A program made the translations under genes and the position numbers. From positions 44,594,734-44,658,733 of the forward strand of contig OY720350.1 of NCBI GenBank assembly GCA_963082975.1: 64,000 bases of DNA, read 5' to 3'. Shown here piece by piece: positions 79 to 63,231 of this stretch. This stretch comes from Labia minor (Eukaryota; Arthropoda; Insecta; Dermaptera; Spongiphoridae). Below the pieces are notes generated by a model that searched no databases, had not been told where the DNA came from, and saw nothing but the letters and a program-made list of their open reading frames with translations. Each line of letters begins with the position of its first letter. Position 1 is the stretch's first letter.

Positions 79-141
79 ATGTCCGGATCCATTACAACTT
101 ATTTAGTAATTCTATTTCAATTTCATAATTTAAAAGAATAA
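79..141 (+). CDS. Gr-0, 3' terminal exon of a gustatory receptor (partial)
   Basis: This is the last exon of a receptor whose earlier exons lie left of the window. A pyrimidine-poor but usable acceptor (ctcaacag) precedes a phase-0 exon reading MSGSITTYLVILFQF, followed by six residues and a TAA stop. TTYLVILFQF is a full match to the insect gustatory-receptor C-terminal signature TYhhhhhQF, which lies in transmembrane segment 7. It is closest to exon 7 of Gr-1 (TTYLVILFQF) and differs from the TSYLIILYQF version in the rest of the array, so Gr-0 and Gr-1 form a separate, more diverged pair. Bases 1-78 read as intron; no exon 6 is visible. Confidence 0.75.
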   Translation: MSGSITTYLVILFQFHNLKE

Positions 142-360
142 AAATATTTATAAGTATTTTTTTTTTCTATTTTGAAAAATACAGAATAATAAAAGAAGAG
201 ATGAATATTATATGAATGAATATTTTTTGGTTATTTATTTAATAAAATTAAAATTAATTTAATGCCAGAACTGTGGCTGATCTTAAGACAAAATGGAGCC
301 CCTCTTACTTCCTTTGTATTAGATATATTAAAAAAAATGTGTATTACAGGATCAAATAAT

Positions 361-455
361 AATCTTTAATGGATATTTAACGTTTATTCATGTTAATTTA
401 TTGATCTACTTATATAGTATTTTAATTTCAGCAGATTTCAAGATTGATTAAATAA
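361..455 (+). other. Decayed duplicate of the last intron/exon-7 acceptor region
   Basis: The stretch ttaacgttta...ttgatcta...attttaatttcagcag resembles the intron end just before the Gr-0 last exon (bases 25-78). It is followed by a short reading that stops after a few codons and lacks TYhhhhhQF. It is probably the relic of a duplicated 3' exon. The rest of 142-1626, apart from the MITE at 781-1024, is AT-rich sequence with nothing I recognise. Confidence 0.3.
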
Positions 456-780
456 AAGCTTTGAAGTTTATATATAATTTTAAAACACATGAAAGAGAAA
501 TCACAAAATAGTTCAATATTTTACTTATAAATATAAATATTCAATTATTGTATGAAATTTTAAATAAATATTTTTATAATGTAATAAACTATAAACAATA
601 ATAAAATCTCACTGTATGTGCTTTAAACTCAGAAAATTTTCTTGTAATTGTATTAAAATTGTAAACGTTCTTTATTTCTAATTCGACTCCAAATATCGAG
701 CCACCACATGCAACGTCCATGCCACGGTTTGGTTCAAATACGTTATCAAATCTTTTACAGTAGAGATATATTCTTCTTAA

Positions 781-1024
781 CACACTATGAGCGGGGCGGG
801 TATTTGTACCCGTTGCGGGGACTGCTACTTATAAGCGGGGCGGGTATTTATACCCGTTGCCACTTATATAATATATATTTTCCCTTGTGTCACTTAAAAT
901 TACTTATTTTAAACGATAACTAATATATATCCCTCATATAAGTGACAACGGGTATAAATACCCGCCCCGCTTATAAGTGGCAGTCCCCGCAACGGCTACA
1001 AATACCCGCCCCGCTCATAGTGTG
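781..1024. mobile_element. Palindromic GC-rich MITE, copy A (TTAA target)
   Basis: A near-perfect foldback. It opens with CACACTATGAGCGGGGCGGG and closes with the inverted copy ending CTCATAGTGTG. Both arms contain paired blocks reading GGGTATTTGTACCCG and GGGTATTTATACCCG. An AT-rich core of about 80 bp separates the arms. TTAA directly precedes the left end; the right TTAA has decayed to ATAG. There is no coding capacity. The GC-rich arms stand out against the surrounding AT-rich DNA. Two further copies lie at 10458-10696 and 12475-12674. Confidence 0.85.
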
Positions 1025-1626
1025 ATAGGATAAAATTAAGAACTACTAGAGTGGGTAGTATAGCCTCGCTCTTATAAGAATATTTAATTCCTTTCTTCTT
1101 TTACATATGAAGACATTCTGCCTTTATTTTCATTTTCATTAGTCATAACTTATAATTTATTAAATTTTATTCTAGTGTATTATTAGTTATATTTAATTAT
1201 GGTAATCTTTTTGAAATTCAATAAATCTAATAGAATGATTATATTTTATGTATTTATATTGATTTAAACGAAATCAATTTCAATTATTGGATTAATACAA
1301 GATTTTAATAATTAAAATTATAATTAATAATTAATAAATCGAGATATTTTAGATTTTAATTAAGGATCGAAACATTATAGAGATGATTTTTAATTTAAAG
1401 GAAATATATTAGTACTATTTAATCATTGATTAATAAATAAATAACATAATACACATGTCATAATAAAAATATTTACAAATGATTGAGATGACATTCTAAT
1501 AAAATTAATTGTTCTATATAAAACTCTTCCAATACTCCCTTATCTAATCAATAGTTATAACAAAATTAAAAAACTGGCAAAGCTCTCTTTATTATATTTA
1601 GTATTATGTATTAAGATTTATTAAGA

Positions 1627-9176: not shown

Positions 9177-11122
9177 ATGACACCTGATCAATGTAGTAAA
9201 GAAAACATAGATTTTCATGAAAATTTTAAATTCATACATTATTTTAATAAAATCATTGGTTTAAATCATATTATAATTGTTGGTGCACCATTTCAAAGAA
9301 ATATCCGTTTAAATATAAAATATAGTATTATCCCTTTGATATGCTTCTTCTTTATTGAAATAATTAATTTTGCATTATTTCAATTTATGAAAGATTTTTA
9401 TGGTAACATTGGGACAAATTTTATAGTCGGCTTATTTGGATGGGTAGTTGTTAACTTTTTACTATTTATTTAAATTATAAGTTAAATTCAATTTTTCTTT
9501 TCAGTTAATTGATCCAATAATCTGTGTACTATTTGTTTTAATAAATATCCATCAAAGAAAAGACCATCTGGAAATTATTATTGATATGAATAAAATTGGT
9601 ATGCCAAAAAACTGGAATAAACATAAACTACTACCAAAATTATTATTTTATTTTAAAATTTTATTCACAATATCTGAAATTTGTTATCATATTACACAGT
9701 TTGTTCTTAAATTTCATGGAAATTGTTATAAAATGATGGTAATGATATGATTAAGTCTTTTAAATTCATTATTATCTTTTTTATAATTTTATAATAATTT
9801 TAATGACGTCATAGCTCCTTTACAGTCACCTGACCATTTTATTATTTTAATTAATATGAGACCTTATAAGAGCTACAATAAGTCTTTTATTAATAATTTA
9901 TTTAATAATAAAAAAATTTATATTTCCAGAAGAATGATTATTTTTGGGTGAATGTTTTTTCACAAATATTCAATTGGATTATTTTTGGAGAATTAAATAG
10001 TTTTTATTTTAAGATTTATTATTTACGAATGCATTTTGAGGACATTAATGACAAATTAAAAAATAGCAAGTATTTATTAAAAACCATTGATCCGGTACAA
10101 AACAAATAATCTATATTAAGATATTGAAATTATAAATTATAATTCTTAATATAACTATATTATAATATTTATTTTTAGATTGAATACAATTGTTTTAATT
10201 TAAGACTTTGGCAACTAGGTACAAAAATAAATGCTTATATGGGTATCAAATTAATTCTATTCACCGGCGAGACATTTGTTATTTTAATATTTTGTTTCTA
10301 TGCTATAATGATTGATGAAATATTAGGTAACATAAATTTAATTAATTTATGGTCATGGATTATTTATATGTCATTCACGTTTATTTTAATGGTTGTAAAC
10401 TGCCAATATTGCACTAATCAGGTAAGAAATTCACTAAATTAATTTCAAGTTTTTTAACACACTATGAGCGGGGCGGATATTTGTACCCGTTGCGGGGACT
10501 GCCACTTATAAGCGGAGTGGGTATTTATACCCGTTGCCACTTATATAATATATATTTTCCATTGTGTCACTTAAAATTACTTATTTTAAACGATAACTAA
10601 TATATATCCCTCATATAAGTGGCAACGGGTATAAATACCCGCCCCGCTTATAAGTGGCAGTCCCCGCAACGGGTACAAATACCCGCCCCGCTCATAATTA
10701 ATATAATTAGAAATGATTTTTTTCTAGGCTAGAAATACGATTAGTATCGTTGATGAAATATCCCTAAATGCAAAAGGAGCCTATTTAGATAAAGTATTAT
10801 TAGTTAAAATAAACCTTACTATTTTTAGAATATTAAACTTATATAATTTTTTTAATTTTTTAGCTAAAATTGTTTTCCAATCACCTTCAACATCGCAATT
10901 TCAATTATAATGCATGGAATTTGTTTCAATTCGATTCTTCATTACTTTTTTTAGTAAATATCAATTCTAAAAAACTAGTATAACACAACCAAATTAATAA
11001 TAATATAATGTTTACAACTGATTTAATGTTATTTTTTGTTTTAGATGTTTGGCACGATTTCAAGTTATTTAATTATTCTTTACCAATTTCACTCTATGAC
11101 TAAAGAAATTAGTATTAAATAA
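9177..11122 (+). CDS. Gr-2, gustatory receptor, 7 exons, 380 aa, intact
   Basis: Exons: 9177-9443, 9505-9738, 9930-10094, 10179-10421, 10728-10793, 10864-10953, 11045-11122; all phase 0 with GT/AG. Residues 11-17 read IDFHENF, where the array-wide start is MDFHxNF. The ancestral ATG has become ATA and translation must use an in-frame ATG ten codons upstream, giving the extra leader MTPDQCSKEN. Exon 2 is longer than usual (78 codons) and reads NIHQRKDHLEIIIDMNKIGMP, a diverged form of the WKRNEY/MNEIGMP block. Exon 4 ends NCQYCTNQ, exon 5 VDEISLNAKGAYLDK, and exon 7 SSYLIILYQF followed by a ten-residue tail. Intron 4 contains MITE copy B. Taste-receptor identity rests on the TYhhhhhQF helix, the seven hydrophobic segments and the three terminal phase-0 introns. 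Confidence 0.85.
10458..10696. mobile_element. Palindromic GC-rich MITE, copy B (intron 4 of Gr-2)
   Basis: Same element as 781-1024, in the same internal orientation. TTAA precedes the left end CACACTATGAGCGGGGCGG. The right end stops at GCTCATA and has lost the terminal GTGTG. The element leaves the splice sites on both sides intact. Confidence 0.85.
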
Positions 11123-11921: not shown

Positions 11922-12474
11922 ATGGATTTTCATTCAAATTTTAAATTTTCTCATTATTTTTACAAATTTTTTGGTTTAAATCATATTGTATTTGATGGTG
12001 AACCATCTCAACGAAAAATACGTGTTTCTTTACTCTCTAGTTGTATAGCAATAATTTTAATTATTGGTGTAATAATTGTAACTACATTGGGTTTTATAAT
12101 ATCTGATCATTCGAAAGGAAAAGTTGGTTTTGAGAGTTATCTTATGGAAACATTTGCAAAGGTATTTTTATTTAATTAAATATTCCTTTTCATGTTTATC
12201 AAATACACCATTTATTAAAGTTCATTATTTTATTTTTAGTTCAATGAACCATTAATAAGTTTTCTTTTTGTTATAATAAATATCTGGAAGCGTAATGAAT
12301 ATTTAGAAATTACTATTAAAATGAATGAAATTGGAATGCCTGGAAACTGGAAACATTATCAAATTTATTCACATCTTTTTTTATTTATGAAAATTATATA
12401 CTTTTTTTGTGAAATAATTATTAATATCTATTCAGAACAGATAGGAAATGTATGACAATTTTATGTTTAGTTAA

Positions 12475-12674
12475 CACACTATGAGCGGGGCGGGTATTTG
12501 TACCCGTTGCCACTTATATGAGGGATATATATTAGTAATCGTTAAAAATAAGTAATTTTAAGTGACACAAGCGAAAATATATATTATATAAGTGGCAACG
12601 GGTATAAATACCCGCCCCGCTTATAAGTGGCAGTCCCCGCAACGGGTACAAATACCCGCCCCGCTCATAGTGTG
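12475..12674. mobile_element. Palindromic GC-rich MITE, copy C, with perfect TTAA duplication
   Basis: TTAA flanks both ends (12471-12474 and 12675-12678). The termini are CACACTATGAGC and GCTCATAGTGTG. The AT-rich core is the reverse complement of the core in copies A and B, so this copy sits in the opposite orientation. The left arm lacks one internal GC-rich block, explaining the shorter 200-bp length. It sits in intron 2 of Gr-3. Confidence 0.9.
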
Positions 12675-13820
12675 TTAATATTTATTTTGAATAAATTACA
12701 TCTATAATTTAAAAAATACATTAAACTCTTATTTCAATTCTTTATTAATTTTGCGGTTAGTTACTTATTGGTCAAATGAATGTCTATTAAAATATATAAG
12801 AAATTTATGATTATTTAATATTTATTTAATTTTAATGTTTATATTTAAATCACATCAGTGTAGAGGAAGTGTTTGAAATATTATTTTATTTGCTAAATTT
12901 TAAACAAAAATAGTCACCATATCATTTCAAGGCCACAAGTTTTCTTGTCTAATAAAGACATTAATGTAGCAAGATTTTACAAAAATGTCTAAATTGTTTA
13001 AATGTATCTTTGAACATGTGTGAATAATTTAATAATTTTGGAATCTAAAAATCTATTTATTTTTCTCATAATAGTCAATTAATTAAAAATTTTTCCTTCA
13101 GATCAGATATTTTATAAATAAATATTTAAAATATGTAATAATAATAATAAAATAATTATACTTTTAGATGATCTTTATAACAATTAGTATCATATGGCAT
13201 CTGACAGCATTGGTGATTTTTGCAGAATTAAATAATTTTTATACGAAGGTTTTCTTTTTACATTTGCATTTCAAAGAATTCAATGAAAATTTAGAAAATA
13301 GCAAATATTCATTAAAGCCAATTTATCCGGTAATTCTCCATACAATCCATAAGATTAAATAAAAATAATGTAAAACAGAATATAATAACTAATTTATTTA
13401 TCATTTTAGATGAAATGTAATGATTTTAATTTAAAATTGTGGAAAATAGTTTCAAAATTGAACTGCTTTCAGGGATTGAAACTTGAAATTTTCTGGACTG
13501 ATTTTTATTAATTTAATATTTTGTTTGTACAGTTTATTGATCATTAAAAGCAACATTAGTTCAAATGAAGTTGAATTAATAATTTGGTTTATATATTCCT
13601 TTGTGTCTCTAATTTTGCATATTTCTAATTGTCAACGATGCATAAATGAAGTAAGTGAATTTTTCTTTTATAATAAGTATAATTTAAATAATATATATTT
13701 GTATTTTGTAATAATATAAAAATTATTATTATTCATAATTTTACTTTTAAGTATTACTATATAAGTAAAGTACCTTACTTATTAATTAAATCAAATATAA
13801 AATAACCACTTAGAGAATTA

Positions 13821-13935
13821 ATAAGTTGACCTGTGGCCAGGTCCGAACCGACCGACGGTTTGAAGTAAATTAATTTCCAGCTACAGAAACAATTTCAAAT
13901 AATTTTAATATATCTATTAATGTAATAAACATGTA
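13821..13935 (+). repeat. Repeat family R2, short copy (intron 4 of Gr-3)
   Basis: Begins ataagttgacctgtggccag and continues through ccgaaccgaccgacggtttg to aatatatctattaatgtaat. This is the 5' end of the longer copies at 24211, 43719 and 45751. Confidence 0.7.
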
Positions 13936-14146
13936 AACCAAAGTAGAATTATCTTTTGGTTATTGAACTATGTTCTTTGAGGTCAACATTGTTAATACAA
14001 GAATAAAGGGAATTATTAATTAAAAAATCACCGAATGATAAGATCGATGAAAATTAAATCAAATTAAGCAGTTCATTAACAATGAACATGTGGCGGACAT
14101 GTATATAGGTGTGGTGGATGTAGGATATTGGATGGTGAAAAAGGCT

Positions 14147-14380
14147 CTAGTAATTATTGCCGAAGAATTAAAATCATAACTCGATTTATTTCACACTATT
14201 TCACACTATATACAATATCTCCACTATGTTGATATGGTGCTGGGTTTGCCCACGTTGGCGCGGCTAGTAATTATTGCCGAAGAATTGAAGTCAAAGCTCG
14301 ATTTGTTTCACACTATCTACAATATATACAATATCTCCACTATGTTGTTATCGTACTGGGTTGGCGCACGTTGGCGCGGC
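14147..14380. repeat. Two-unit tandem duplication, period 117 bp
   Basis: Units 14147-14263 and 14264-14380 both start ctagtaattattgccgaaga and end cacgttggcgcgg, with scattered differences between them. A short open frame crosses them (14234-14491), but it has no homologue in the array and is probably chance. A run of 11 or more G follows at about 14513. Confidence 0.75.
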
Positions 14381-15842
14381 GCCATCTATTTGTGGTGTGG
14401 GGCACCACAGTTGGTACGAAGTCGTTGGCCCGTGTTCATTCGTGAACTATATTGTTCTACTATATCGGTTGTAGATACAGAGAATAAATGAAGTACATTA
14501 AATGAACACGGTGGGGGGGGGGGCACCACAAACATAAACAAAACAAAAAAATTAAATCATTTTCTAAAGAACCCGCTCTATGTAGGTATACCAACTTATC
14601 TCTTCTAGTTGATTGGTTGAATTTTATGTTTGTCAATTATATTTTAAATTTTAGTTATTTATAAAAAATAAAAGGAATATATCAATTTCAATACCAAGTA
14701 CATAAATTAATAAACTAACTACAAATTTGATTTCAAGAAATGATTTATAAAATCCTTATTTTATAGCATAAACTTTTTTATTTATTCCTATCATAATTAA
14801 TCCATCTTAGTTACCCTACCAATAACAATAAATGTTTTTATTTTTTAGGCTAAAAGAACAATAATAATCGTTGATGAATTGTCTATAAATGCAAAAGGAG
14901 CTTATCTAGATCAAGTATAATATAAATTAATTAGACATAATAATAAATGAATATTAATATATTTCTAATTTCAGTTTAATTATATTTTTATTTAATATTT
15001 CAGTTGAAATTATTTTCAAATCATTTGCAACACCGTGATTTTAGTTTTGATGCCTGGAATTTATTTCCATTTGATTCCAAATTATTATTTATGGTAAAAT
15101 CCCTATTTTTTTTTTATTAGATATTGAGTTCATCAATTAATATTAGATTGTTTATTTTTTTATAGATGTTTGGAACGATTACAAGTTATTTAATTATTCT
15201 GTATCAATTTAATATGAAGGAAAAGCAGTCAAAATCGCTTTAATTAATAAGTTTTTTGCATGGATATATTTTGCTATATATTATCTAATTGATTTTAATT
15301 GTGATTAGTATAAAAAAATATAAATTCTCTTGGACATAATGTTATATCTCTTTGGAATATTTTCCACTTTATTTATTTTTTTTTATTTGATAAACATAAT
15401 TTTAATAAATATTTTTATTAATCTCAATCATGTATGCCACCGACTAAATAATAGTAAAAAAAAACTTTTATCGACTAATATAATATACCTTTCTATCTAT
15501 TATTGAGTCGAAAATGAACTCAAAAGTTCCTAGCCTCATTCAACACATTTCTCTATCTATCCTTGTCGGTCCTCCATTCAATTCTCTCTCAATTTTTTTT
15601 TTATATTATCAGTTTAAAAGATTATTGGTATAACACTATACTTACCATTTGGTGTTCTTAAAAAAAATAAAGAATCCTAAATTAAATAATTTTAACTAAT
15701 TTATAAATTGATCTTCTAAAAGATTTGTTGAGAATCTATTCAATTAATTTTATTCAATTTTTGAATGAGTAAAATTTTTAATTAGATTGTTTATATAGTA
15801 TAGACAAATCCCCTAGTCCCCTTAACAAATTACTTATATATA

Positions 15843-43213: not shown

Positions 43214-43718
43214 TTTAGAAAAATATTTACAATGGCTTTTGAATGACAGTTTAAATTAATTAATTAATATTATTAATTAATTAAACGCATTCGAGCCTTA
43301 TACTAGTAAAATTATAACAAATCTAAGTATATTATTATATATAATATTGTAATGTATATTATTATAACATAAATTAAGCGAATATTAAAATTACAGTTTA
43401 TTATTTATTTATTTTTTAATTTCTTTTCGATTATTATTATCCTTTATTCTTTTTAATTGTACTTCAAGTCAGCTGTTTTCAATTCTTATCAAGATGTGTC
43501 GTGCCTCGCCTCCTCATTTTTTTAACAAATATTATAATATAAACATATTTAAAATAAGTTTTATTTTGAAACTTCTATTCTACTGAATTATTGTACAATA
43601 GTTCTATTAATTTTTTTTCTTGTTAATTGTGGTGGAAGAAATACATTATCTTCATTGTCAATAAATGGATACAGTACTCATAAAAACTTAGAGAAATCAA
43701 AATGTTTGAAATAATTTG

Positions 43719-44539: not shown

Positions 44540-47224
44540 ATGGATTTTCATTCAAATTTTAAATTTTCTCATTATTTTAACAAATTGATTGGATTAAATC
44601 ATATCGTGATTGATGGTGAACCATTTCAACGTAAAATACGAGTTTCTCTAAAATCCAGTTGTATATCAATAATTTATATTTTTGTTATTCAAATCACTAT
44701 AATTTATTTTTTATTTAAATATGATAACCTAGACAAAAAAGTTTGGGCGAATTATCTTATGGAATCCTTTGAAAAGGTATTGAAGTATTTATTTATGATT
44801 ATTTCCTTTATTTATTTTTACTTATTTTTAAATTAATATTTTTTTTTTTGTAGTTTAATGAACCACTAATAAGTTTTGTATTTATTATAATTAATATATG
44901 GAAACGGAATGAATATTTGGAAATAATTATTGGAATGAATGAAATTGGAATGCCTGAAAAATGGAAGCAGTATAAAATTTATCCATATCTTTATTTCTTT
45001 GCTAGAATTATATTCACCATTTATGAATTAATATTTCTTTCATTTACAAAAAACGAGTATTTTAGAAATGTATATTTTTTGTTTATTTATTTAAATAATT
45101 AATATTAATAATTGTAAAAAATTTTCATAGATTGAATAATTCTGAAACCATTATAAATTAAAAAAATCTTCCAATCATTTAAATATTTACAATTTTTAGA
45201 TCTTCTTTATAACAGTCAATTTATCATGGCAGATCACAGAATGGATAATTTTTGCAGAATTAAATAATATTTTTATAAAGATATTCTACTTGCGTTTACA
45301 TTTCAAAGAATTAAATGAAAATTTAGAAAATAGTAAACATTCATCAAAGACAATTGATGTGGTAATAATTCATTTTAATATTTTATATAGATTTTTTTTT
45401 TGAAATCATCATGATTGCTCAAATATAGAAAAAAAATTTCTATTTGTTTTTAGATGAAGTTTAATAATCATAATTTAAAATTGTGGAAAATTGTTTCAAA
45501 ATTAAACTCCTATCTGGGGCTAAAATATGTACTTTTTTCTGGTCAAATTTTTATTAGTTTAATATATTGTTTATATATTTTATTTATCAATCCAAAAAGC
45601 TGGATTAGTACCAATATTTATGGAATAATTCTTGGCCTTGTCTATTATGTTATTGTAATTGTTCTGCATATTTCGAACAGTCAACGGTGCATCAATGAAG
45701 TATGAGAATTTTTATTTTATAACGCTATATTGATATAAAAAATATATATAAATAAGTTGACCTGTGGCCAGGTCTGAACCGACCGACGGTTTGAAATAAA
45801 TTAATTTCCAGCTACAGAAACAATTTCAAATAATTTTAATATACCTATTAATGTAATAAAAAACAGATATGGATACATAAATAATAAATATAAACATTTT
45901 TAATTTTATTTTATTTATAATATATATGTAAGAGACCAGGTTGTGAGGTCATGAATAACTGGATGACGTCATATAATTTTAAATTAAGAAAAAACTAATA
46001 AAGATGATTTTTCTCGAGAATAAAACCAATACAATGTGCATGATTCGTGGTGATATGTTAAAAATCTCCTCATGTGAAATTTGGTGTGAAAATAACTATC
46101 GTCGATCGCTAATATTAAAAATTCCCGTTTCCGGATTTTCACCAAAAGTTGATCAATTCATCGTACTGATGCATTAAGTAAATATACCAAATTTCATCAA
46201 AATCCGTTGAGCCGTTCAGACTGTACATATCTATACGGACGGACGGACAGACATCATTCTAAAAATACTTTTTTCTGTTAAGAAAATGCATGATTCGTAG
46301 AGATATGTAAAAATCTCCACATGTGAAATTTGGTGTGATAACAATACCTCCCTTACTATCGTCGGTCGGTAAAAATAATTGAATTAATTTGAAATCATAA
46401 TTTTATTTATAAAATGAATTATTTAATGCCTTAAATTAATTAAAATAAATCTTAATAGGTAAGTTAGTTTTTACCTATCGACGATAGGAAGGGAAGGTAT
46501 TGTTTTCACACCAAATTTCACAGGTAGAGATTTTTACAATTCTCCATGAATCTTGTATTTTGTTATCAGAAAAAATCTGGAGTGTCACTCCATTCGACTA
46601 TCTAGCAAATTTGGATTGGATTAATTAACATATTATTTAACATATATATTTAAATTAAATTTAATTAATTAAATTATAAATTAAAATTAATAAATAATAT
46701 TTATTAAACCAGTGCGTGTTTGGCTCCACGTAACGTGCTGGTGCGTAATTGCCAAGTGTTAAAACATTAATTCCGGTACTTTCAGCGATACAGTCAAGCT
46801 GAAATTCTATATATAGAAGTTTTATACAATTTTTAATCATGTGAAAAACTATCAAACATATATATTTATTTTTAAGGTCAGTTTAGAGGGAAAATCAGCT
46901 TGAGTGTATCCACTCGACTATCTCGCAAATTTAATTAGAAATTCAAGTTTTTTTCTATATTTGAAAATTAATTAAAATGCTATTCTATCCGATAATTAAT
47001 TTATCATATTTCTTATTCTATACAGTCGGTCCTTTTAGTTCTGAGTTCCGGGATTTTTGCGAAGTGTGCGTTCAATAATAACAGAAATCGATTCCTATTT
47101 ATAAGTACTTTGTGATCATTACTTGCTCAAAAGTTGATAGTTGATAGAAAACTACGAATTTTGAATAATGCCCGTATACCAAATTTCATATTTCTAGCTC
47201 AAACCGTTTTTGCGTAATCTTGTC

Positions 47225-47256
<32 letters not shown>

Positions 47257-48212
47257 CAGACATTTTTCTCAACCATAGGGAAAATGATTCAGGAACCTTT
47301 AAAACGTATAAAAACATCAAAATTTCGACATTGAAAATTTTCGTGATCGCAATACTGGCGAGATAGTAAAAAGTATTTTTAGCATGATGTCTGTCCGTTT
47401 GTCCGTCCGTCCGTCCGTCCGTCCGTTGTGAGTCCGTAAAGACGTGTTCAGCTTGACCGGCTCAACAGATTTTGACAAAATTCGTTATATGTTATTTACT
47501 TAAAAGCATCAGTAGCATGAATTCATCAACTTTTGGTGTATATCCGCAACCGGGAGTGGTAGTATACAAAGTGTTAATTTTATATTCATTGTCAGAAAAA
47601 ATTTCACTTAAAATATAGTAGTAATTAATAATTGAGTAATTAAACTAAAAATAAAAACCAAGATAATATAATTTAGTCATCTTAATTCAACTATTAAAAA
47701 TATTTTTTTTTTACTTTCTATAAGTATATATAGATAATGTTGTTTGGAAATTAATTTATTTCAAATAGGTTTTGTGCCTGGCCACAGCTAATTTCTTAAA
47801 ATTTTATTTCAATATTTTTTCAGGCTAAAACTACAATAACTATCGTTGATGAATTGTCTATCAATGCAAAAGGATCATACCTAGATCAAGTATAATATTT
47901 ATATTTAATTGACCTAAATTATAAAAGTTATATTGGACTAAAATTAAATTTCTCTTATGTTCTTTATATTTTAGTTGAAATTATTTTCGATTCATTTACA
48001 ACATCGTGATTTTAGATTTACAGCTTGTAATATGTTTTCATTTGACTCCAAATTATTATTTATGGTAAACTTAATATAATTCTTCTTTCTACATTCATAT
48101 ATTCTATAAATATTAGTTTAAGTTATTTTAATTACTTTTGTAGATGTTCGGCACAATTTCAAGTTATATAATAATTCTCTATCAATTTAACAATATTGGA
48201 AAACCATCATAG
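44540..48212 (+). CDS. Gr-9, gustatory receptor, 7 exons, 361 aa, intact
   Basis: Exons: 44540-44776, 44854-45069, 45200-45361, 45454-45699, 47824-47889, 47975-48064, 48144-48212; phase 0, with GTATGA as donor of intron 4. Residues 1-15 read MDFHSNFKFSHYFNK. Exon 2 reads INIWKRNEYLEIIIGMNEIG. Exon 3 ends TIDV instead of TIDP. Exon 4 ends NSQRCINE: the first Cys of the NCQxC pair is lost. Exon 6 reads ACNMFSFDSKLLFM, replacing the usual AWNLFPFD, and exon 7 SSYIIILYQF. The odd exon-6 form is shared with Gr-13 as part of an almost identical 370-bp stretch. Intron 4 (2.1 kb) holds repeats R2 and R3. The AATAAATAAATAAA at 48259 is a likely polyadenylation signal. The join across intron 4 is inferred from order and frame. 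Confidence 0.8.
45751..46375 (+). repeat. Repeat family R2, long copy (intron 4 of Gr-9)
   Basis: Starts aataagttgacctgtggcca and ends ctatcgtcggtcggtaaaaa. It contains the ccaaatttcatcaaaatccg and (GGACGGACAGAC) portions. It lies directly after exon 4. Confidence 0.7.
46571..47372 (+). repeat. Repeat family R3, nested or rearranged copies (intron 4 of Gr-9)
   Basis: ctggagtgtcactccattcg at 46575 starts one copy. A second start, cttgagtgtatccactcgac, lies at 46902, and the 3' portion (ttgaataatgcccgtatacc, aacctttaaaacgtataaaa) at 47160-47340. A reversed R2 fragment follows at about 47373-47575 (tgtccgtccgtccgtccgtc, catcaacttttggtgtatat), and a short reversed piece lies at 46478-46560. Confidence 0.6.
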
Positions 48213-48635: not shown

Positions 48636-49164
48636 ATGGATTTTCATGCAAATTTTAAATATTCTCATTATTTTAGCAAATTATTGGTATTAAATCATCT
48701 TGTGATTGACGGGGAACCTTTTCATCGGAAAATTCGAGTTTCTTTAAAATCAAGTTTCATACCATTACTTTTTATTTTGTATACTAATCCCTATTCTTAT
48801 CATTTTTATTATACTTGATTATATAGATATTAAATCTACTGTTTTGGCAAATTATATCATAGAAACATTTGCAAGAGTATTTATATTTTTGGTAAATATA
48901 TTAGTTTTTGGTTTGAATTTCATTTTGTTTTCAGTTCAACGAACCAGTTATAAGTTTGGGTTTTGTTTTATCAATATTTGGAAGCGTAATGAGTACAAAG
49001 AAATTATTATTGGAATGAATGAAATTGGAATGCTTGAAATTTGGGAAAAGTTTAAAATTTATTCATATCATTTGTTAATTTTTATAATTATCTACTCCAT
49101 TTCTGAAACACCTTTCATGTTATATTCAAGATTATTAATTATTATTCAATCTTTATTAATTTAA
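48636..49164 (+). pseudogene. Gr-10, truncated gustatory-receptor pseudogene (exons 1-2 only)
   Basis: Exon 1 (48636-48876) starts MDFHANFKYSHYFSKLLVLN, identical to Gr-13. At 241 nt it carries one extra base near 48785, which leads to a stop after FYYT. Exon 2 begins at 48935 (FNEPVISLGFVL) and has lost one base at about 48968, within LINIWKRNEY. The two shifts would cancel, but only after the stop has already been met. The exon-2 donor present in Gr-13 (gtacga) is gone, and exons 3-7 are absent from the following 2.9 kb. The upstream 100 bp (aatgtagaacaagaat) is also duplicated before Gr-13. Confidence 0.85.
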
Positions 49165-52051: not shown

Positions 52052-54109
52052 ATGGATTTTCACTCAAATTTCAAATTTTCACATTATTTAAACAAAGTCC
52101 TAGGTCTAAATCATCTTGTGATTAATGGTGAACCATTTCAACGTAAAATACGAGTCTCTTTGAAATCCAGTTTGATACCATTACTTTTTATTTTTCTTAC
52201 TACTATCGTATTATTTATAAGATTTGATAATTTTAATATAATAAAATCTACTGTTTGGACAAATTATATTTTGGACATATTTTCAACAGTATTTATTTTT
52301 AAATTTTATTTTCATTTATTTGTTCTTTAAAATTTCTCTTTTTTTCAGGTAAACGAACCATTTATAAGTATTTGTTTTATTTTAATAAATATTTGGAAAC
52401 GTAATGAATATTTGGAAATTATTGTTGGAATGAATGAAATTGGAATGCCTAAAAATTGGATTCAGCATAGAATTTATTCTTATCTGTTTTTATTTTTTAC
52501 AATTATATACATGACATTTGAATTAATTTTCACTCCATATACAGAATATATTGATTTTAAAAGTGTACGAAATTTCTTTATTAATTAATATTAATACTAA
52601 TTATTAATGGTGAAACGTTTTAGTATTATAAATTTATAAATAATATGAATCAATATGATTTTGTTTTCTAATTTAATCTAGATTGAAAATTATAATTTTA
52701 GGTCTCCAGTGTAATAATCAATTTCACATGGCAGTTAACAGAATGGATAATTTTTGCAGAATTAAATAATTTTTATACTAAGGTTTTCTACTTACGTTTA
52801 CATTTCAAAGAATTAAATGAAAATTTAGAAAATAGTAAATATTTATTAAACAAAATTGATCCGGTAATAATTCATTTAATTATAATGTAATATTGTATTT
52901 TAAAATAATACAAATTGATTTATTTTTTTAGATGAAATATAATAATATTAATTTAAAATTGTGGAAAATTGTTTCAAAATTGAACTCTTATCAGGGACCT
53001 AAACTTGTCCTCTTTTCTGGACAGGTTTTTGTACGTTTAATATTTTGTTTGTATGATCTATTAATCAATCCAACTTATCCCTCTAGAACAATTTTTTTTG
53101 TTGACTTATTAATTTGGGGTTCATATGCCCTTATTTCTGTTTTCCTGCAAATATATAATTGTCAAAATTGCAAAAATGAAGTAAGTAGGTTTTTTTATAA
53201 TGTAATATTTATTGTATACAATCCCAAATCATATAAAAAACCTACATATACAGATAATAGTTATTTTTTGTTTAATCACCAAATATATTTCTTCAAAAAC
53301 ATGTTTATCGACAATAATTAATAAATAAATACATAATATAACAATGTTCTAATAAGGAAATTAAATATGATCCATATTGAAATTAGTTAAAATTAAAATT
53401 AATAAATAAAATGATTACAATATCAGTAAATATACCTATAAATAATTTAAATTAATTCGACAAAAAATGAAACATCACAATTTGTCCAACAAACTCCGAT
53501 GATGATTATTTTTTAAATTCATTTTGATTTGTTTATAAAAATTCGAACAATTTTTAATTTAATATATTTTTTCAGTTTAAAAGAACCATTTTAATCGTTG
53601 ATGAATTGTCTATTACTGCAAAAGGACCTTATTTAGATCAAGTAATATATTTATATAGTTGAAAAAATAGATATTTCAAAATACATCTTTATTGGACTAT
53701 TTTACATTTCAGTTGATATTATTTTCAAATCATTTACAACACCGTGATTTAAATTTTACTGCTTGGAATTTTTTTCCATTTGATGCCAAGTTATTATTTA
53801 TGGTAAACTCAACACATAAGTATATCATATTCTACACTTTTCATTAAATATATATACATGTATATATATATTTATTTATTTATTTATTTATTTGTAAAGT
53901 AGAATTTATTTACGTATCTTTTGTTTATAATTAAATTTAATCAATACACTAAATAAAATAAACAACCTTATATATAAATAAGTATATATTGCATATAAAT
54001 ATATATAATATTAATTATAATTTTTTTATGATTGTAGATTTTTAGCACGATTGCTAATTATTTAATCATCCTGTATCAATTTTCTAAAGTAGGACAATCA
54101 TCAGAGTAA
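52052..54109 (+). CDS. Gr-11, gustatory receptor, 7 exons, 363 aa, intact and compact
   Basis: Exons: 52052-52288, 52349-52564, 52702-52863, 52932-53180, 53576-53641, 53713-53802, 54038-54109; GT/AG, phase 0. It is the shortest complete locus (2.06 kb) because its introns carry no mobile DNA, and it serves as the empty-site reference for Gr-8. Residues 1-15 read MDFHSNFKFSHYLNK. Exon 2 starts VNEPFISICFILINIWKRNE. Exon 4 ends NCQNCKNE, and exon 5 reads FKRTILIVDELSITAKGPYL (Phe for the usual Ala/Ser). Exon 6 is NHLQHRDLNFTAWNFFPFDA, and exon 7 ANYLIILYQF with tail SKVGQSSE. Against Gr-8 the differences concentrate in exons 1-2. Exons 5-7 and the 3' flank are almost identical. Confidence 0.9.
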
Positions 54110-54337
54110 TTTAAAAAAAATATTTACAATGGCTTTTGAATGACAGTTTAAATTAATTAATTAATATTATTAATTAATTAAACGCATTCGAGCCTTATAC
54201 TAGTAAAATTATAACAAATCTAAGTATATTATTATATATAATATTGTATATTATTATAACATAAATAAAGCGAATGTTAAAATTATTATCTCTACAGTTT
54301 ATTATTTATTTTTTAATTTCCTTTCGATTATTATTAT

Positions 54338-55390
54338 TCATCTTGTGATAAATGGTGAACCATTTCAAGGTATAATAAAAATCTCTTTAAAATACAGTTA
54401 TATACCAATAATTTCTATGTTTGCTATTCAAATCAGAATAATTTATTTTTTATTTAAATATGATAACCTAGACAAAAAAGTTTGGCGAATTATCTTATGG
54501 AAACCTTTGAAAGAGCATTGAAGTATTTATTTATGATTATTTATTTGATTTATTTTTACTTATTTTGAAATTAATATTTTTTTTAGTAGTTTAATAAACC
54601 ACTAATAAGTTTTGTATTTATTATAATTAATATATGGAAACGGAATGAATATTTGGAAATAATTATTGGAATGAATGAAATTGGAATGCCTGAAAAATGG
54701 AAGCAGTATAAAATTTATCCATATCTTTATTTCTTTGCTAGAATTATAGTCACCATTTATGAATTAATATTTCTTTCATCTACAAAAAACGAGTATTTTA
54801 GAAATGTATATTTTTTGTTTAATTATTTAAATAATTCATATTAATAATTGTAAAAAAATTTAATTGATTGAATATATATATAATTCTGAAACCATTATAA
54901 ATTAAAAAAAATATTCCAATCATTTAAATATTTACAATTTTTAGATCTTCTTTATAACAGTCAATTTATCATGGCAGATCACAGAATGGATAATTTTTGC
55001 AGAATTAAATAATATTTATATAAAGATATTTCTATTTGTTTTTAGATGAAGTATAATAATCATAATTTAAAATTTTGGAAAATTGTTTCAAAATTAAACT
55101 ACTATCTGGGGCTAAAATTTCTACTTTTTTCTGGTCAAATTTATATTTATTTAATATATTCTTTATATATTATATTTATCAATCCAAAAAGCTGGATTAG
55201 TATCAATATTTATGGAATAATTCTTGACCTTTAATGTTCCGTAATTGTTCTGCATATTTCGAACAGTCAACGGTGCATCAATGAAGTATGAGAATTTTTT
55301 TTTAAATTCTTTTAATTACTTATGTAGATGTTCGGCACAATTACAAGTCATATAATAATTCTCTATCAATTTAACAATATTGGAAAATAA
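54338..55390 (+). pseudogene. Gr-12psi, gustatory-receptor pseudogene, duplicate of Gr-9
   Basis: Exon 1 remains only from HLVINGEPFQ onward (54338-54519). A deletion joined the 3' flank of Gr-11 directly to the middle of the exon. One base is lost in gtttggcgaatt, and the donor GT has become GC. Exon 2 (54590-54805) is intact and almost identical to Gr-9. Exon 3 starts at 54945 but is fused by deletion to the end of intron 3 at about 55030. Exon 4 (55046-55289) has a 6-bp deletion creating a stop (DLstop). Exons 5 and 6 are deleted, and exon 7 (55328-55390, TSHIIILYQF) follows directly. It cannot encode a receptor. Confidence 0.88.
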
Positions 55391-55836: not shown

Positions 55837-58800
55837 ATGGATTTTCATGCAAATTTTAAATATTCTCATTATTTTAGCAAATTATTGGTATTAAATCATC
55901 TTGTGATTGACGGGGAACCTTTTCATCGGAAAATTCGAGTTTCTTTAAAATCAAGTTTCATACCATTACTTTATTTTTTTTGTATACAAATCCCTATTAT
56001 CATCATTTTTGTTATATTTGATAGTAAACATAATAGTTCTTCTCTTTTGGCAAATTATATCGTAGAAACATTTGCAAGAGTATTTATATTTCTCTATTTT
56101 TTGTAAATATATTAGTTTTTGGTCTGAATTTCATTTTGTTTTCAGTTCAACGAACCAGTTATATGTTTGGGTTTTGTTTTAATCAATATTTGGAAGCGTA
56201 ATGAGTACAAAGAACTTATTATTGATATGAATGAAATTGGAATGCCTAAAAATTGGAAAAAGTTTAAAATTTATTCATATCATTTTTTAATTTTTATAAT
56301 TATATACTACATTTCTGAAACATCTTTCATGTTATATTCAAGATATTCTCAATCACAAAATGTACGAAATTTCATGTTTATTTAATATTAATCTTTATTA
56401 ATTTTATTTATTTAATTAAGTATCTTCAAATTTGTTCATTCAACAATTAAAACATTATTATTGATTTAATTTGTTTCCCTCAAATATATAATAATATAAT
56501 TTTTAATCTTACTTACAATATTAATAATATTCGTATCTCACGCACCTATTATAGTAATTAATATATCAAACTAGTATAGTATTTATAACTGACATTTTAT
56601 AATATCATTTAATAAATTATTTGACTTTTAGTGAATTTACCCGAAAAATTCCAAAAACCGGCATTTTATTAAATAGATAAATAAGTATGGTATAAGGGCA
56701 GGTCAATAAGTTAAGGCTTTTGGATAAAAATTTTTTTTTCAACTCAATCTTCTTTGAACTCTATAACTCGTTCAATGTTTCTCCAAATTTAATATCACTT
56801 CCAAAAAATAAAATTTGTCGAGGACATCAAAATATGTATATTTGTTTCTTAGATGTTTTCATCGTTGGAGTCAAATCTTTTTCCCCAGAGCCATTTTTTC
56901 AGGTTTGAAAACAAGAAATAGTCACTCGAGCCTAAATCCGGAGAATAGGATGGATGATGGAGCAAGCCGTATCCCAATTAATGGATTGTGTTCACCCTTG
57001 CTTTGTCCTGATGGAAAAGACCCCTTTTTGGCAAATTTTGTTTGGTCTCTGGTGTGTTGTGGTCCACGTTTCATCCAGGGTTACAAAACGGCATCAAAAC
57101 ATGTCCATATTGCAGTTAATCAACGCCAAACAATTTGGCATGCGATTGTGTTAGTGGTCGATTCTTAGCAAACGCGGAACCTATCTTGTGGAAAGCTTTC
57201 TCAGCCCAAGTAATCATATAAAATGGAAACCACTGAACCATGTGTTATGCCTATGGCTTCTACAATCTCCCTCACTTTCAATCTCCGATCGGCCATCACT
57301 ATATCGTGAATTTTGTTTCGGGTGTAGAGACCTCAATTGGACACCCAGAACGTGCAGCATCTTCCGTGCTTGTATGGCCTCAACGAAATTTGGTAAATCA
57401 CTTCTTGACCATTGAAATTTCTGGTATTGTATTGTAGGCATAACACATGGTTCAGTGGTTTCCATTTTATATGATTACTTGGGCTGAGAAAGCTTTCCAC
57501 AAGATAGGTTCCGCGTTTGCTAAGAATCGACCACTAACACAATCGCGTGCCAAATTGTTTGACGTTGATTAACTGCAATATGGTATGGTATGATCCTATA
57601 GTATTTATCAAGCTTAGCTTTGGTTTCAGTCACGAAATTCACATTTTTCCAGTTTCTTCTCAAATCACGAGGTAGTCTGCAATTAATGGATTTAAAACAA
57701 AAACGATATGACCCAGCTTGATAAAATTTCTACAGGTTCAGCTGTTAGTTTCCTGCTGACAGGAATGTTATACTTATAGTATAATCATTTCATTTAAGAG
57801 ACGGGAATTTCAAAAAGTCACGGACTTATTGACCTGGGTTAAAAAGTTATTACTTTAACTATTCACAATTGAATTTAATTAATTTATTAATTTTAAGAAT
57901 ATATTTTAATGTATCCTTTTAAAAAAGGATTCATTGCAAAATGATGCATCATTAATTTTTTACTTTCTCTTTATTTTACAAACTATTAATCATTATAATA
58001 TTTATTATTCTTAATTTAAAATGTGATAATTTGAAAAGAAATAGAAATAAAATTATTAATTTTGACAATTCTAGGTCTATTTTAGAACTGTGTGAATTTT
58101 TAAAAAAGATACATGCCATTTGATATTATCCGTGTTTATTTATTTTTAATTTTTTATTTCAATTTTAATCTTTTTTAAAAAAATTATCTTTTTAGATATT
58201 CAATATAATATTCTATATTTCATGGCAATTAGCAGAATGGATAATTTTTATTGAATTATCAAATTTTTACTCTAAAGTTTTCTATTTATGTTTACATTTC
58301 AAAGAATTAAATGATAATTTAGAAATTAACAAACTTTTATTAAACACAATTGATACGGTAATAACTCATTTAATTATAATGTAATATTGTATTTTAAAAT
58401 AATACAAATTTATTTATTTTTTCAGATGGAATATAATAATTATAATTTGAAATTGTGGAAAATTGTTTCAAAATTGAACTCTTTTCAGGGACCTAAACTT
58501 GTCCTCTTTTCTGGACAGGTTTTTATTCGTTTAATTTATTCTTTTTTTCTCCTATTAATAATCAATCCAATGTCTAATTTAAAAATAGACTATCTTTTTG
58601 GTATAACAATGTGGTCTTTATATGCTATTATTTCTATTATTCTGCAAATATATAATTGTCAAAAATGCATAAATGAAGTAAGAAAATTTTTATTTTATGA
58701 TTCAATATTAATAATTAATAATTTAATAAACATTTTATATGCTCTACATATACAATATCCTAAAAAAAACATATAAATACAAATAATAAATAATTTTCAT

Positions 58801-60703
58801 ATTTTATTTTTAATCTTTTTAATTCAAAAGAGTATCATAGTTAGGTATATATTATATACCCCATTTACATAGATTAGTAACACAATTTCTAATATTAATA
58901 TGATTTATATAAATAGTGTGATCATAGGTACCTTTTTTAAATTGACCCTACTATCGTTGTAGTAAAAATATCAATTTTATTTCACTTTTAACAATCTATA
59001 GTTAATATGGATTATGACAAGTTTTATGATAAAGAATTGAAAGATCGAAATTTGCTGTGTAAAAATACCTCATTGTTAAAAACAGTTGATATCTCTGTAG
59101 AATTAGTAAGTTTATATAATAAATGTTTTTATCATCTTACTTTTTTATGAATGCACAATATTTAAAGAATATATAGTATTAGAAGAGGTCTATGAACCAT
59201 TTTTTGTATTTTTTTGACTTCTTGTAATATTATGTTAAAATGTAAATTATTTATATTTTAACATGGAACAGAAAATAAATTATTTAAGGGATTAAAGAAT
59301 AAAAATTGAAAGTAAATGATTGAACATTTTAAAAATAAATAAAAATGTGGAAGTTTAAATAACTAAGGAATGAGAGGTGGAGGGGATAAGCAAGAGAGGT
59401 GTGTGGAGAGCGGGGTGGAGCGGCAGACAGATTGCTGAATGATGAGATGGTTAGGCTTTAAGCGATTAATGAATTATATAAAATAAAGGGTGAAATATTA
59501 AAACTGGATTAATCCGGAATTTGTAATAATAGTAAGTGATACTGATCACTTAGAATTGATTATCATATCTTTTGTAAATACCTTTATATGTAATATTAAT
59601 TTTGTTTCTCTTTTTCTTTCTTTGATGAAAATATCCTATTTTATTTTTTTTAACTCTATTTTTTTTGTAATTATATAAATATTATCAATAATATAATATA
59701 TATATATATATATATTTATATTGTTAAATTACTTATTTTGTTTTGTTGTTGATGAAGATATCATATTTTTTTGTTTTCTATTTTTGTAAATATATAAATC
59801 TTTAAAAATAAAGAATAATAATATATTTTAATTAGTTTTTTTTTTTTGTTGATTGTTTAATTATTTTTTTTTATAAAAGCAGTATCTTAGGTGTATGTCC
59901 ACCTCCATTCTCTTTCAGACACTCAGGCCCTTGGACCATAACTGTCGGTATTAAAAGGGGGGGGGGGGAACGCGATATTACACTTATAATTCTCAATTCT
60001 TCATTTTACAACACTAATCTATTTTATAATTATAACGTTTTTCTTAACTTCACTTGGCGTCTGTCCCTCTGTCTGTTCGCTCTTTTGAAAAATTGAAATC
60101 GATTTTTCATCGATTTTTTATTGAAACTTTTAAAAATTTTTATAGATATTTCAATGGATCCCTAGAAGGTATAGAAGAAATATAATTGAATTATAATTTC
60201 CCCACCCAGTATCATACTTAATATAAGTATATTAATTTATAAGATATAATTCCTTAAATTAAATCCTAATAGACAATATTTTTTTAAAATATAATTTCTA
60301 TATTTTTTCAGGCTAAAACTACAATAACTATCGTTGATGAATTGTCTATCAATGCAAAAGGATCATACCTAGATCAAGTATAATATTTATATTTAATTGA
60401 CCTAAATTATAAAAGTTATATTGGACTAAAATTAAATTTCTCTTATGTTCTTTATATTTTAGTTGAAATTATTTTCGATTCATTTACAACATCGTGATTT
60501 TAGATTTACAGCTTGTAATATGTTTTCATTTGACTCCAAATTATTATTTATGGTAAACTTAATATAATTCTTCTTTCTACATTCATATATTCTATAAATA
60601 TTAGTTTAAATTATTTTAATTACTTTTGTAGATGTTCGGCACAATTACAAGTTATATAATAATTCTCTATCAATTTAACAATACAGGAAAAACGTCATCA
60701 TAG
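55837..60703 (+). CDS. Gr-13, gustatory receptor, 7 exons, 366 aa, intact
   Basis: Exons: 55837-56079, 56146-56361, 58196-58357, 58426-58677, 60312-60377, 60463-60552, 60632-60703; GT/AG, phase 0. Residues 1-20 are MDFHANFKYSHYFSKLLVLN. Gr-10 is its broken duplicate. Exon 2 reads INIWKRNEYKELIIDMNEIG. Exon 3 is diverged (FIELSNFYSKVFYLCLHFKE). Exon 4 begins MEYNNYNLKLWKIVSKLNSF and ends NCQKCINE. Exons 5-7 (TTITIVDELSINAKGSYLDQ; ACNMFSFDSK; TSYIIILYQF) are nearly identical to Gr-9 including the introns, while exon 4 is closer to the Gr-8/Gr-11 type. This makes Gr-13 a mosaic. Intron 2 carries a mariner relic; intron 4 (1.6 kb) carries unclassified sequence with a 12-base G run at about 59957. 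Confidence 0.85.
56698..57835 (-). mobile_element. mariner element relic with an internal inverted duplication (intron 2 of Gr-13)
   Basis: The inverted ends are caggtcaataagt (56699) and acttattgacctg (57835). On the - strand near 56880-56980 the frame reads HHPSYSPDLGSSDYFLFSNL followed by KKWL, the conserved mariner block with the third catalytic Asp present. Near 57300-57420 the N-terminal half shows FTKFR and GHTSTEDAARSGCPIEVSTP, typical of mariner helix-turn-helix regions. Segments of about 150 bp at 57103-57250 and 57434-57583 are inverted copies of each other, so the element has been rearranged. Stops and frame changes make it inactive. Confidence 0.8.
58680..60300. other. Intron 4 of Gr-13, unclassified content
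   Basis: AT-rich sequence with an (AT)n tract at about 59696-59715, a purine-rich patch at 59365-59430 (gagaggtggaggggataagc), a 12-base G run near 59957 and a ctgtccctctgtctgttcgc patch at about 60060. No transposase or receptor exon is seen. Confidence 0.45.
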
Positions 60704-61256
60704 TGTAAAATGTTTTCAAAATTACTAAAAAAATGAAAAGTAAATAAAGGATGTGTAAACAATCAACAATTAACGAATTAAATTATTAATTTTATGAAAT
60801 CTAATTGTGATTTCAATTGAAAATTTTCGAAAATTTGAAAAATAAAAAAATTGGTATTCATATTTATTTATTAGGCTTTTATCAAATAAAACTTAAATGC
60901 CTAATGATTAAATATCAATTTTATAATATCAATATTATATTCATTATTTAATGAACATTTTTACTAAAGTCAATAATAATAACAAATATAATAAGAATTA
61001 TATTAATTTAATCGGTAATTAAGTTAAAAAAAATGATTCATTATTATTGGGTTTGGCTGGTAATATTAAGTACCGGGACCCCGACCCTCGCCTCGGTAAT
61101 TAAGTTTAAAAAAACTTTCTATTGATTTTATCCTCGGGAAAAATCATCTTCATTAGGTTTTTCGTAATTTAAAATAATATGACGTCATCCGAACCCTTCA
61201 TGGCGTCATGAAACGCAAATATATGCAAAAATTCTTAAATTCTGAGCAATGTGCAG

Positions 61257-61545
61257 ACAAAAATGGCGGAGACGGCATAACGAGGAATTGCATGACCTCT
61301 ATGCATCTTCAGAAATAGTTATGGTTATAAAAGCAAAAAGGCTGCGATAGACAGGCTAGAATGGGTGAGGAAAAAGATATTGGTGCTGAGACCGATTGGA
61401 AAACGTCCGCTTGGAAGACCAAGGACGCGTAGGAAGGGACGTAAGAGAGATGGGACAAGGGCTCAGGAATGGACACTTGGAGAATGTAGTTGTTGCGGCC
61501 AAGAACTTTCGAGTATCGTTGAGCCACATAGATAAATAGATATAA
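61257..61545 (+). mobile_element. Non-LTR retrotransposon 3' tail fragment
   Basis: It follows the same path as 16181-16531: tgcatgacctctatgcatct, the attggaaaacgtccgcttgg block, gagatgggacaaggg, gttgcggccaagaactttcg and gagccacatagataaataga. It has several deletions and stops. It lies in the Gr-13/Gr-14 spacer (60704-62076), which otherwise holds AT-rich DNA. Confidence 0.7.
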
Positions 61546-61634
61546 CATATTCAATAATAATATATATAATTAATTTACTGATTAAATTAAAATATATTTT
61601 AAATAAGAACACAAAAAGAAATGAATTTTTATGT

Positions 61635-61760
61635 AATATACTGATTGAAACAAAATGGATGAAAACCTTTTACTACTTTCAACCAAATAATATGTACCAC
61701 TCGGGGGTTCAGGGGGCTGGAGCCCCCGTCTAGGTGTGAAGAGTGCTCTGAGCAGCTAGT
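61635..61760 (+). mobile_element. Helitron 3' end fragment
   Basis: tgaaacaaaatggatgaaaac, ccactcgggggttcaggggg, gagcccccgtctaggtgtga and agcagctagt match the 3' terminus of the Helitrons at 40711-41334 and 19719-21464. No 5' end is seen nearby. Confidence 0.65.
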
Positions 61761-62076
61761 ATCTATATAAATATACACTATACCTTATTCCTTTATTCAA
61801 ATGTATAATTAAATATGTTTGTAATATATTGATTACTCTTTGAAAATTAATAAATTCTTTAAAAATAATGATTAAGTTTTCATATTATAATTTTTTTTTT
61901 ATTTTTATTTTCAATTTATTTAAGTACTTAATTAATAATCAATAACAATAATTTAAAAATATAATTAATATTCAATAATATTCAATGAGTGTTACCATAA
62001 TAAAAATGTTTCATTATTTATTGAACCGTTGAATAATTTATTTATTAACTTTAAAATTTCTATTTTATCAATTAAA

Positions 62077-63231
62077 ATGGATTTTCATTCAAATTTTATA
62101 TTTTCCCATTATTTAAACAAATTCCTAGGTTTAAACCATATTGTGATTGATGGTGAACCATTTCAACGTAAAATTCGTGTGTCTTTAATATTCAGTTTGA
62201 TACCAATAATTTATATGTTTGTTATACATATCACCATATTTTATTTTTTTATTAGTACTGATTATCTAGAAAAAAAGGTTTTGGCGAATTATCTCATGGA
62301 AACCTTTGCAAGGGTATTCAAGTATTTGTTTATGTATATTTGCTTAATTTAATGTATTAATATTAATTTAGAAATGAAATATTTTGTAGTTCAATGTACC
62401 AGTAATAAGTTTTCTTTTTCTTATAATAAATATATGGAAACGTAATGAATATTTGGAAATTATCGTTCGAATGAATGAAATTGGAATGCCTGAAAAATGG
62501 AAACAGTATAAAATATATTCATATCTTTTTCTCTTTGTTGGAATTATATACAATATTTATGAAATAATTATTGTATTTTTCATAAATAACAACATTAATG
62601 TTTAGTATATGTTTTGCTTAATCCCACAATTATTAATAGTTTTAAAATAAATATTATAATGGACTGAAATATTAAAGGAAAATTTCCAAAATATATTAAA
62701 TAATAACATTTATAATTACCATTTTTAGATATGGTCAACAACACTGAGTTTATCATGGCAGGTTACAGAATTGATCAATTTTGCAGAATTAAATAATATT
62801 TATATAAAGATATTCTACTTGCGTTTACATTTCAAAGAATTAAATGAAAATTTAGAAAATAGTAAATATAAATTAAAGGCAATTGATCCGGTAAAAATTT
62901 ATTTAAACAATTTAATATCAATTATTTTCAAATCAATATAAACACACGAATATAGATAATAAAATTTCATTTTCTTTTTTAGATGCAATATAATAATCAT
63001 AATATCAAATTGTGGAAAATTGTTTCAAAATTGAACTCCTATCTGGGACTAAAATTTGTACTTTATTCTGGTCAGATTTTTATTATTTTAATATTTTATT
63101 TTTATATTACATTAGTCAATCCGAAAAGTCGGATTAATACTTCCAATGTTTATGCAGTAATACCTGGTTTTTTATACTATGTTATTATTATTCTTCTGCA
63201 TATTTCTAACTGTCAACAGTGCATCAATGAG
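62077..63231 (+). CDS. Gr-14, gustatory receptor, exons 1-4 (3' end beyond the window)
   Basis: Exons: 62077-62313, 62390-62599, 62729-62890, 62983-63231, all phase 0. The donor after exon 2 is GTTTAG, weaker than in relatives. I chose the ATG at 62077 because MDFHSNFIFSHYLNK aligns with every other start. An in-frame ATG at 62029 would add 16 residues. GEPFQRKIRV is followed by SLIFSLIPIIYMFVIHI, INIWKRNEYLEIIVRMNEIG, AELNNIYIKIFYLRLHFKEL and an exon 4 ending NCQQCINE with a GTATGA donor. Exons 5-7 do not appear in the remaining 770 bp; with intron 4 often above 1 kb they probably lie to the right, but truncation cannot be excluded. Confidence 0.82.

Follow-up and report, generated by a model that had tools for sequence, protein, structure and literature searches.

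The 64,000-nucleotide stretch of the earwig Labia minor analysed here (the window; C9:44594734-44658733 of the 604-Mb assembly, where C9 is chromosome 6, OY720350.1) is, judging from its sequence, part of a tandem array of insect gustatory receptor (Gr) genes, a gene family that is real and, for an insect, ordinary. The array holds further Gr members of a known family; the new observation is that exons 5-7 of certain paralogues, together with the introns between them, look homogenised, which we read as ectopic gene conversion. A single explanation very probably covers the tandem array on chromosome 6, its pattern of constraint, its growth and loss, and the conversion at 3′ ends. The product of each gene would be a cation-channel subunit with seven helices and an intracellular N-terminus. 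Purifying selection would act on the pore helix and on a cytoplasmic anchor made up of the N-terminus and inner loops, and the outer loops and several helices would diverge, leading to ligand changes. The array would grow by tandem duplication and lose members by frameshift and deletion, and ectopic conversion between neighbours would overwrite exons 5-7 (the last inner loop and the pore helix), leaving exons 1-4 untouched.

Gene models and family assignment

Loci are named by window coordinate. The gene at 40120-43213 was spliced by hand and its seven exon peptides were used as translated queries across the window, along which the ordered set of seven exons recurs on the + strand. Exon searches and the reading of junctions by hand gave 15 Gr loci, all on the + strand: 10 complete, 3 broken and 2 cut by the window edges (Table 1). 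These are the counts of the initial annotation, which had described ten intact genes, three pseudogenes and two edge partials with a common seven-exon plan and every intron in phase 0; the phase holds in all window models and in 168/168 introns of the wider array. Direct-repeat detection, which uses no gene models, found copies at the same places as the Gr loci (among the 20 of 48 families listed). Exon profiles made from the ten intact window genes gave E-values as low as about 1e-40; those ten genes match by construction, a circularity that does not extend to other loci.

The 7tm_7 profile (Pfam PF08395) was matched by 10/10 of the spliced window proteins, nearly full length and at 45-110 bits against a curated cut-off of 26.6, so the Gr identity first proposed stands. 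A family profile was built from eight members, five in the window and three lying downstream; the solved sequences that it matches are five distinct ones, each bearing the name gustatory receptor (E 4.5e-14 to 1.7e-10). As to gene structure, throughout the array the last intron lies six codons before a TYhhhhhQF-type motif in 28/28 intact genes (26 by script, two by eye), and introns 4-6 are in phase 0 in the same 28/28. The place of the last intron before this motif is reported as a Gr hallmark (PMC2680840); the homology of the array intron to the hallmark intron is one of position. All 28 genes have the motif in a relaxed form, mostly without its first T, with Q in 28 and the final F in 26 (T in two).

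Two other receptor groups were tried and rejected. The sugar-receptor profile PF06151 (Trehalose_recp) never scored better than 7tm_7 in the ten window proteins: it was passed by one, the gene at 1627 (26.1 bits, cut-off 21; 7tm_7 68.5), and no match was listed for the other nine. For the insect odorant receptor profile (PF02949, 7tm_6), 0/10 window proteins were listed as matching; elsewhere in the genome it has 83 matches.

Single-frame searches see only scraps of these genes, as had been anticipated. A six-frame 7tm_7 scan of the genome gave at least 58 matches (a lower bound, since the scan scores the best candidates only), with one in the array among the matches listed. When single exons were tried, exon 4 alone fell just below the cut-off and exons 1 and 6 alone gave no match.

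The six phase-0 introns are a variant of the Gr exon plan. Large tandem ‘bitter’-type insect Gr clades (PF08395) usually have a long first exon, which in the array is cut into four. The polyneopteran Blattella germanica Gr429/430 are reported to have, like the array genes, six introns of which the last three are in phase 0, with phases of 1-0-1-0-0-0 as against 0-0-0-0-0-0 here, a likeness in intron number and in the phase of the last three (PMC6175461). Receptors for fructose and sugars with solved structures, among them BmGr9 and Gr43a (PDB 8vc1, 8zdz, 8uvt, 8jm9, 8x82), align with the C-terminal 145-150 profile positions and only weakly with the N-terminal half; this is no evidence of sugar sensing in the earwig genes. 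Other large Gr clades suggest, by analogy, that the ligands are probably contact (‘bitter’-type) tastants.

Table 1. Receptor loci and apparently homogenised tracts, in window coordinates
Feature	Coordinates	Strand	Exons or remarks	7tm_7 (bits)
Exon 7 of intact seven-exon gene	79..141	+	Exons 1-6 upstream of window, -3590 to -20	
Intact Gr gene, 360 aa	1627..4690	+	1627-1866, 1937-2170, 3114-3269, 3353-3592, 3689-3754, 4386-4478, 4637-4690	68.5
Intact Gr gene if start is ATG at 9177	9177..11122	+	9177-9443, 9505-9738, 9930-10094, 10179-10421, 10728-10793, 10864-10953, 11045-11122	73.9
Pseudogene	11922..15243	+	Seven exons all recognisable, frameshift in exon 4 (13410-13650)	
Intact Gr gene	17427..21720	+	17427-17666, 17734-17949, 18718-18879, 18982-19227, 19628-19693, 21507-21596, 21664-21720	45.1
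Intact Gr gene	23485..28915	+	23485-23721, 23793-24002, 26738-26899, 27012-27257, 28549-28614, 28695-28784, 28847-28915	77.2
Intact Gr gene	29470..33631	+	29470-29706, 29779-29994, 31145-31306, 31384-31632, 33256-33321, 33409-33498, 33572-33631	110.2
Intact Gr gene	35493..39178	+	35493-35726, 35790-35999, 37641-37802, 37875-38123, 38813-38878, 38955-39044, 39107-39178	76.2
Intact Gr gene	40120..43213	+	40120-40356, 40422-40637, 41406-41567, 41643-41888, 42681-42746, 42819-42908, 43142-43213	98.5
3′ part of gene 40120	42515..43440	+	93% to 53407-54337	
Intact Gr gene	44540..48212	+	44540-44776, 44854-45069, 45200-45361, 45454-45699, 47824-47889, 47975-48064, 48144-48212	91.3
3′ cassette, exons 5-7 and introns 5-6 of gene 44540	47789..48210	+	97.4% to 60277-60698, 97.2% to 64815-65236; 422 bases	
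Pseudogene	48636..49128	+	Frameshifts in exons 1 and 2; exons 3-7 not found by exon searches	
Intact Gr gene	52052..54109	+	52052-52288, 52349-52564, 52702-52863, 52932-53180, 53576-53641, 53713-53802, 54038-54109	90.7
Pseudogene	54306..55390	+	Exon 1 start lost, exon 3 shortened, stop in exon 4, exons 5-6 absent, exon 7 present	
Intact Gr gene	55837..60703	+	55837-56079, 56146-56361, 58196-58357, 58426-58677, 60312-60377, 60463-60552, 60632-60703	86.6
Longer tract, genes 55837/62077	60195..61008	+	99.0% to 64732-65547; 816 bases, abrupt at both ends	
Gr gene cut by window edge	62077..64000	+	62077-62313, 62390-62599, 62729-62890, 62983-63231; exons 5-7 beyond edge, 64850-65241	

Extent and age of the array

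The array continues past both window edges, with 33 exon-1-bearing loci (E < 0.001) on one strand over 163 kb, from window coordinate -9316 to 153586 (C9:44585417-44748319). Within about 20 kb beyond either end, none of the seven exon profiles matched at E < 0.05. When one exon 1 was searched against the genome, at least 30 matches appeared: at least 29 in the interval 44.585-44.744 Mb of C9, every one on the + strand, and one on chromosome 2 (C2). The relatives there (C2:40586401-40616400, - strand) have the same N-terminal motif in four exon-1 matches, followed by further exons in the same order; in the three copies that were read (3/3), exons 4 and 5 form a single open frame, unlike in the array, and these copies therefore have no intron 4. 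Two more dense runs of 7tm_7 matches occur on chromosome 6, at C9:49.55-49.74 Mb and C9:54.63-54.74 Mb.

Of the array loci, 28/33 are intact over seven exons; those at 11922, 48636, 54306, 78026 and 120000, the last a fragment, are broken. An intact reading of 78026 was rejected: the automatic model needed a 4-base intron, and reading of the junctions gave a pseudogene. All 168 introns of the 28 models are in phase 0, 164 with GT-AG and 4 with GC-AG ends. Because phase 0 was a criterion in choosing the models, its uniformity partly reflects the search, and the result is that open frames and splice sites exist throughout. In three of the 28 models exon 5 had diverged and was located by a search of its own, and four models hold only if a GC donor is accepted; the GC introns (GCAAGT) start at -6012, 99677, 123663 and 152133, all outside the window. 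Decayed relics of exons 6-7 downstream of the window (about 67525-67666, 72205-72408 and 77324-77533), each with a stop in the pore motif, sit just upstream of the similar loci 68142, 72859 and 78026 and belong to the duplicated unit.

Protein distances, computed for all 28 intact genes as was the protein tree, correlate with physical distance along the array (Mantel r 0.53, p 0.0001, 9999 permutations). Protein identity among intact members runs from 26% to 91%, and synonymous divergence (dS) in the two closest pairs is 0.06 and 0.15. The expansion had been called recent, which fits such pairs and fails for the array as a whole, given identities down to 26%; the array contains both old and young duplicates.

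Constraint and apparently homogenised 3′ ends

Hydropathy gives seven predicted helices, and K and R amount to 4.9-9.3 on inner segments and 0.7-1.5 on outer ones; from both, seven helices with the N-terminus inside are predicted. The four predicted cytoplasmic segments show 70-79% identity and the outward loops 21-38%. Pooled, inner identity is 0.75 (181 residues) against an outer 0.32 (34 residues), and 0/361 rotations of the labels reach this difference.

Pooled ratios of nonsynonymous to synonymous divergence (dN/dS) by region come from 15 of the 28 intact genes, the closer relatives from 17427 to 92389. The N-terminal 40 residues (78.6% identity) have a ratio of 0.26, and residues 41-79, the rest of exon 1, 0.90. 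Values further on are 0.58 in exon 2, 0.79 and 0.51 in the two parts of exon 3, 0.19 and 0.57 in those of exon 4, and 0.25-0.27 in exons 5-7. The conservation of the N-terminus pointed out in the initial annotation is real, but the first part of exon 4 and exons 5-7 are equally constrained, and a special trafficking signal is not its likeliest meaning. All four cytoplasmic segments are conserved, so the N-terminus is one of four and not special. In BmGr9 the anchor is described as the inner parts of S2, S4-S6 and S7a, with S7b lining the pore, and conservation across GRs has been proposed for an S0-S1 hairpin (PMC11100771). Within the Gr fold, the conserved N-terminus (MDFH...SLKSS) would likeliest correspond to helix S0 together with that hairpin.

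These ratios bear on whether the array is mostly a graveyard, decaying with few loci in use. Such decay would agree with 3/13 whole window loci and 5/33 array loci being broken, and with two doubtful signals: an ATA at 9207 where other loci have ATG, that gene being complete only via an in-frame ATG at 9177, and an unusual, weak intron-2 donor (GTTTAG) in the gene at 62077. With 28/33 loci open over seven exons and pooled dN/dS of 0.19-0.27 in the N-terminus, the first part of exon 4 and exons 5-7, we consider a graveyard highly improbable.

Across exon 5, intron 5 and exon 6, genes 44540, 55837 and 62077 are 100% identical. Exons 5 and 6 have a dS of 0 in all three pairs, exon 7 has 0.07-0.24, and exons 1-4 have 0.16-0.82. 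That intron 5 is identical too argues against selection acting solely on the protein. The 44540 tract runs from 35 bases upstream of exon 5 to the stop codon; on its upstream side identity drops to about 40% within 100 bases. Trees of the gene halves were made from 17 of the 28 intact genes, the closer relatives, with 225 columns for exons 5-7. For exons 1-4, 44540 and 62077 stand with 23485 and 55837 stands elsewhere; for exons 5-7, the three group together. In approximately unbiased (AU) tests each half rejects the grouping of the other (p 8.4e-71 and 6.0e-5). Genes 40120 and 52052 form a milder case, with a dS of 0 in exons 5-7 and 0.11-0.32 in exons 1-4, which ordinary variation could explain in part.

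Identical 3′ cassettes might instead come from a few unequal crossovers within genes, giving chimaeras. Same-strand tandem copies favour unequal crossing over, and neighbouring loci are duplicated in blocks, but one crossover would carry the downstream flank along and both ends of each shared tract lie within a few hundred bases (422 for 44540, 816 for 55837/62077). Such two-sided limits point to conversion more than to one crossover, and we regard the chimaeras as unlikely. Errors of assembly, with repeats collapsed or mis-joined, are a further candidate for highly similar neighbours, which are hard to assemble; as the tract ends differ by pair, whole-tract identity is 97-99% and not 100%, and the consensus quality value (QV) is given as 57.7 in the genome note (PMC11937785), the chance of this seems very slight.

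There might also be fewer genes than counted, several 5′ units being alternatively spliced into shared final exons, as is reportedly the case at the Drosophila Gr39a locus. This arrangement is published for some cockroach Grs (PMC6175461), and here too the last three exons are those most alike between neighbours. Yet at 28/33 loci each of exons 1-7 is present and complete, with splice sites that could be used, and the published cases have one long first exon where the 5′ part here consists of four; shared final exons are thus a very unlikely account of the array.

Conversion, our preferred reading of the cassettes, invites a functional conjecture that we put forward as doubtful: exons 5-7 may be an exchanged pore cassette, repeated conversion keeping the pore and last inner loop alike among neighbours, perhaps for co-assembly of subunits, with exons 1-4 free to change ligand. 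If so, the array would evolve at the DNA level as a modular ‘variable front, shared back’, without alternative splicing. Whether conversion shapes Gr pores could be tested cleanly on the tracts over exons 5-7; a Drosophila study found the effect of gene conversion on its turnover estimates negligible (PMC4122928).

Several points weigh against the overall explanation. The first motif residue, T in the insect Gr motif, is T in only 6/28 genes and mostly S (15) or N (5), with G in 2. No protein homologue outside the Labia minor genome was found among 3272 candidates at E ≤ 0.001. The outer segments of the topology are short (34 residues in total, against 181 inner), and the second part of exon 3, which belongs to an inner loop, has the middling dN/dS of 0.51. 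The 44540 tract fades on its 3′ side over about 150 bases with no sharp end, and the groups compared in the AU tests were named after the dS table had been seen. The doubtful start and donor described above count on the same side.

Other elements and context

A dispersed repeat of about 0.36-0.65 kb lies at 24197-24850, 43719-44081 and 45740-46379 (88-94% alike), with more copies in and around the array. Intron 2 of gene 40120 holds a G+C-rich stretch with a hairpin and a CTAG end at about 41241-41338, presumably similar to a Helitron 3′ end. We take the open reading frame (ORF) at 36894-37316 to resemble the end of a mariner transposase, and that at 16082-16513 the tail of a retrotransposon reverse transcriptase. 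In a Pfam check for transposons of five unspliced window ORFs, these two included, none scored above cut-off and one gave a sub-threshold DUF5373. Rfam had no match in the whole window at gathering thresholds.

None of the papers listed in literature searches dealt with earwig Grs, judged by title or by title and start of abstract. According to the genome note, the Labia minor genome ‘will be annotated’ (PMC11937785). Among insect orders, Dermaptera have been sampled poorly, and the models of this array, checked by hand, can guide Gr annotation in further earwigs. Forficula, Euborellia and Anisolabis have assemblies at scaffold level, according to PMC11829193. The 15.6-kb contig C13, considered as a candidate mitochondrial genome, gave no match to a piece of COX1 and was set aside. 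Elsewhere in the assembly, both ends of C4 bear (TTCGG)n or its complement, a telomere motif that has been reported from Labia minor (PMC11829193).

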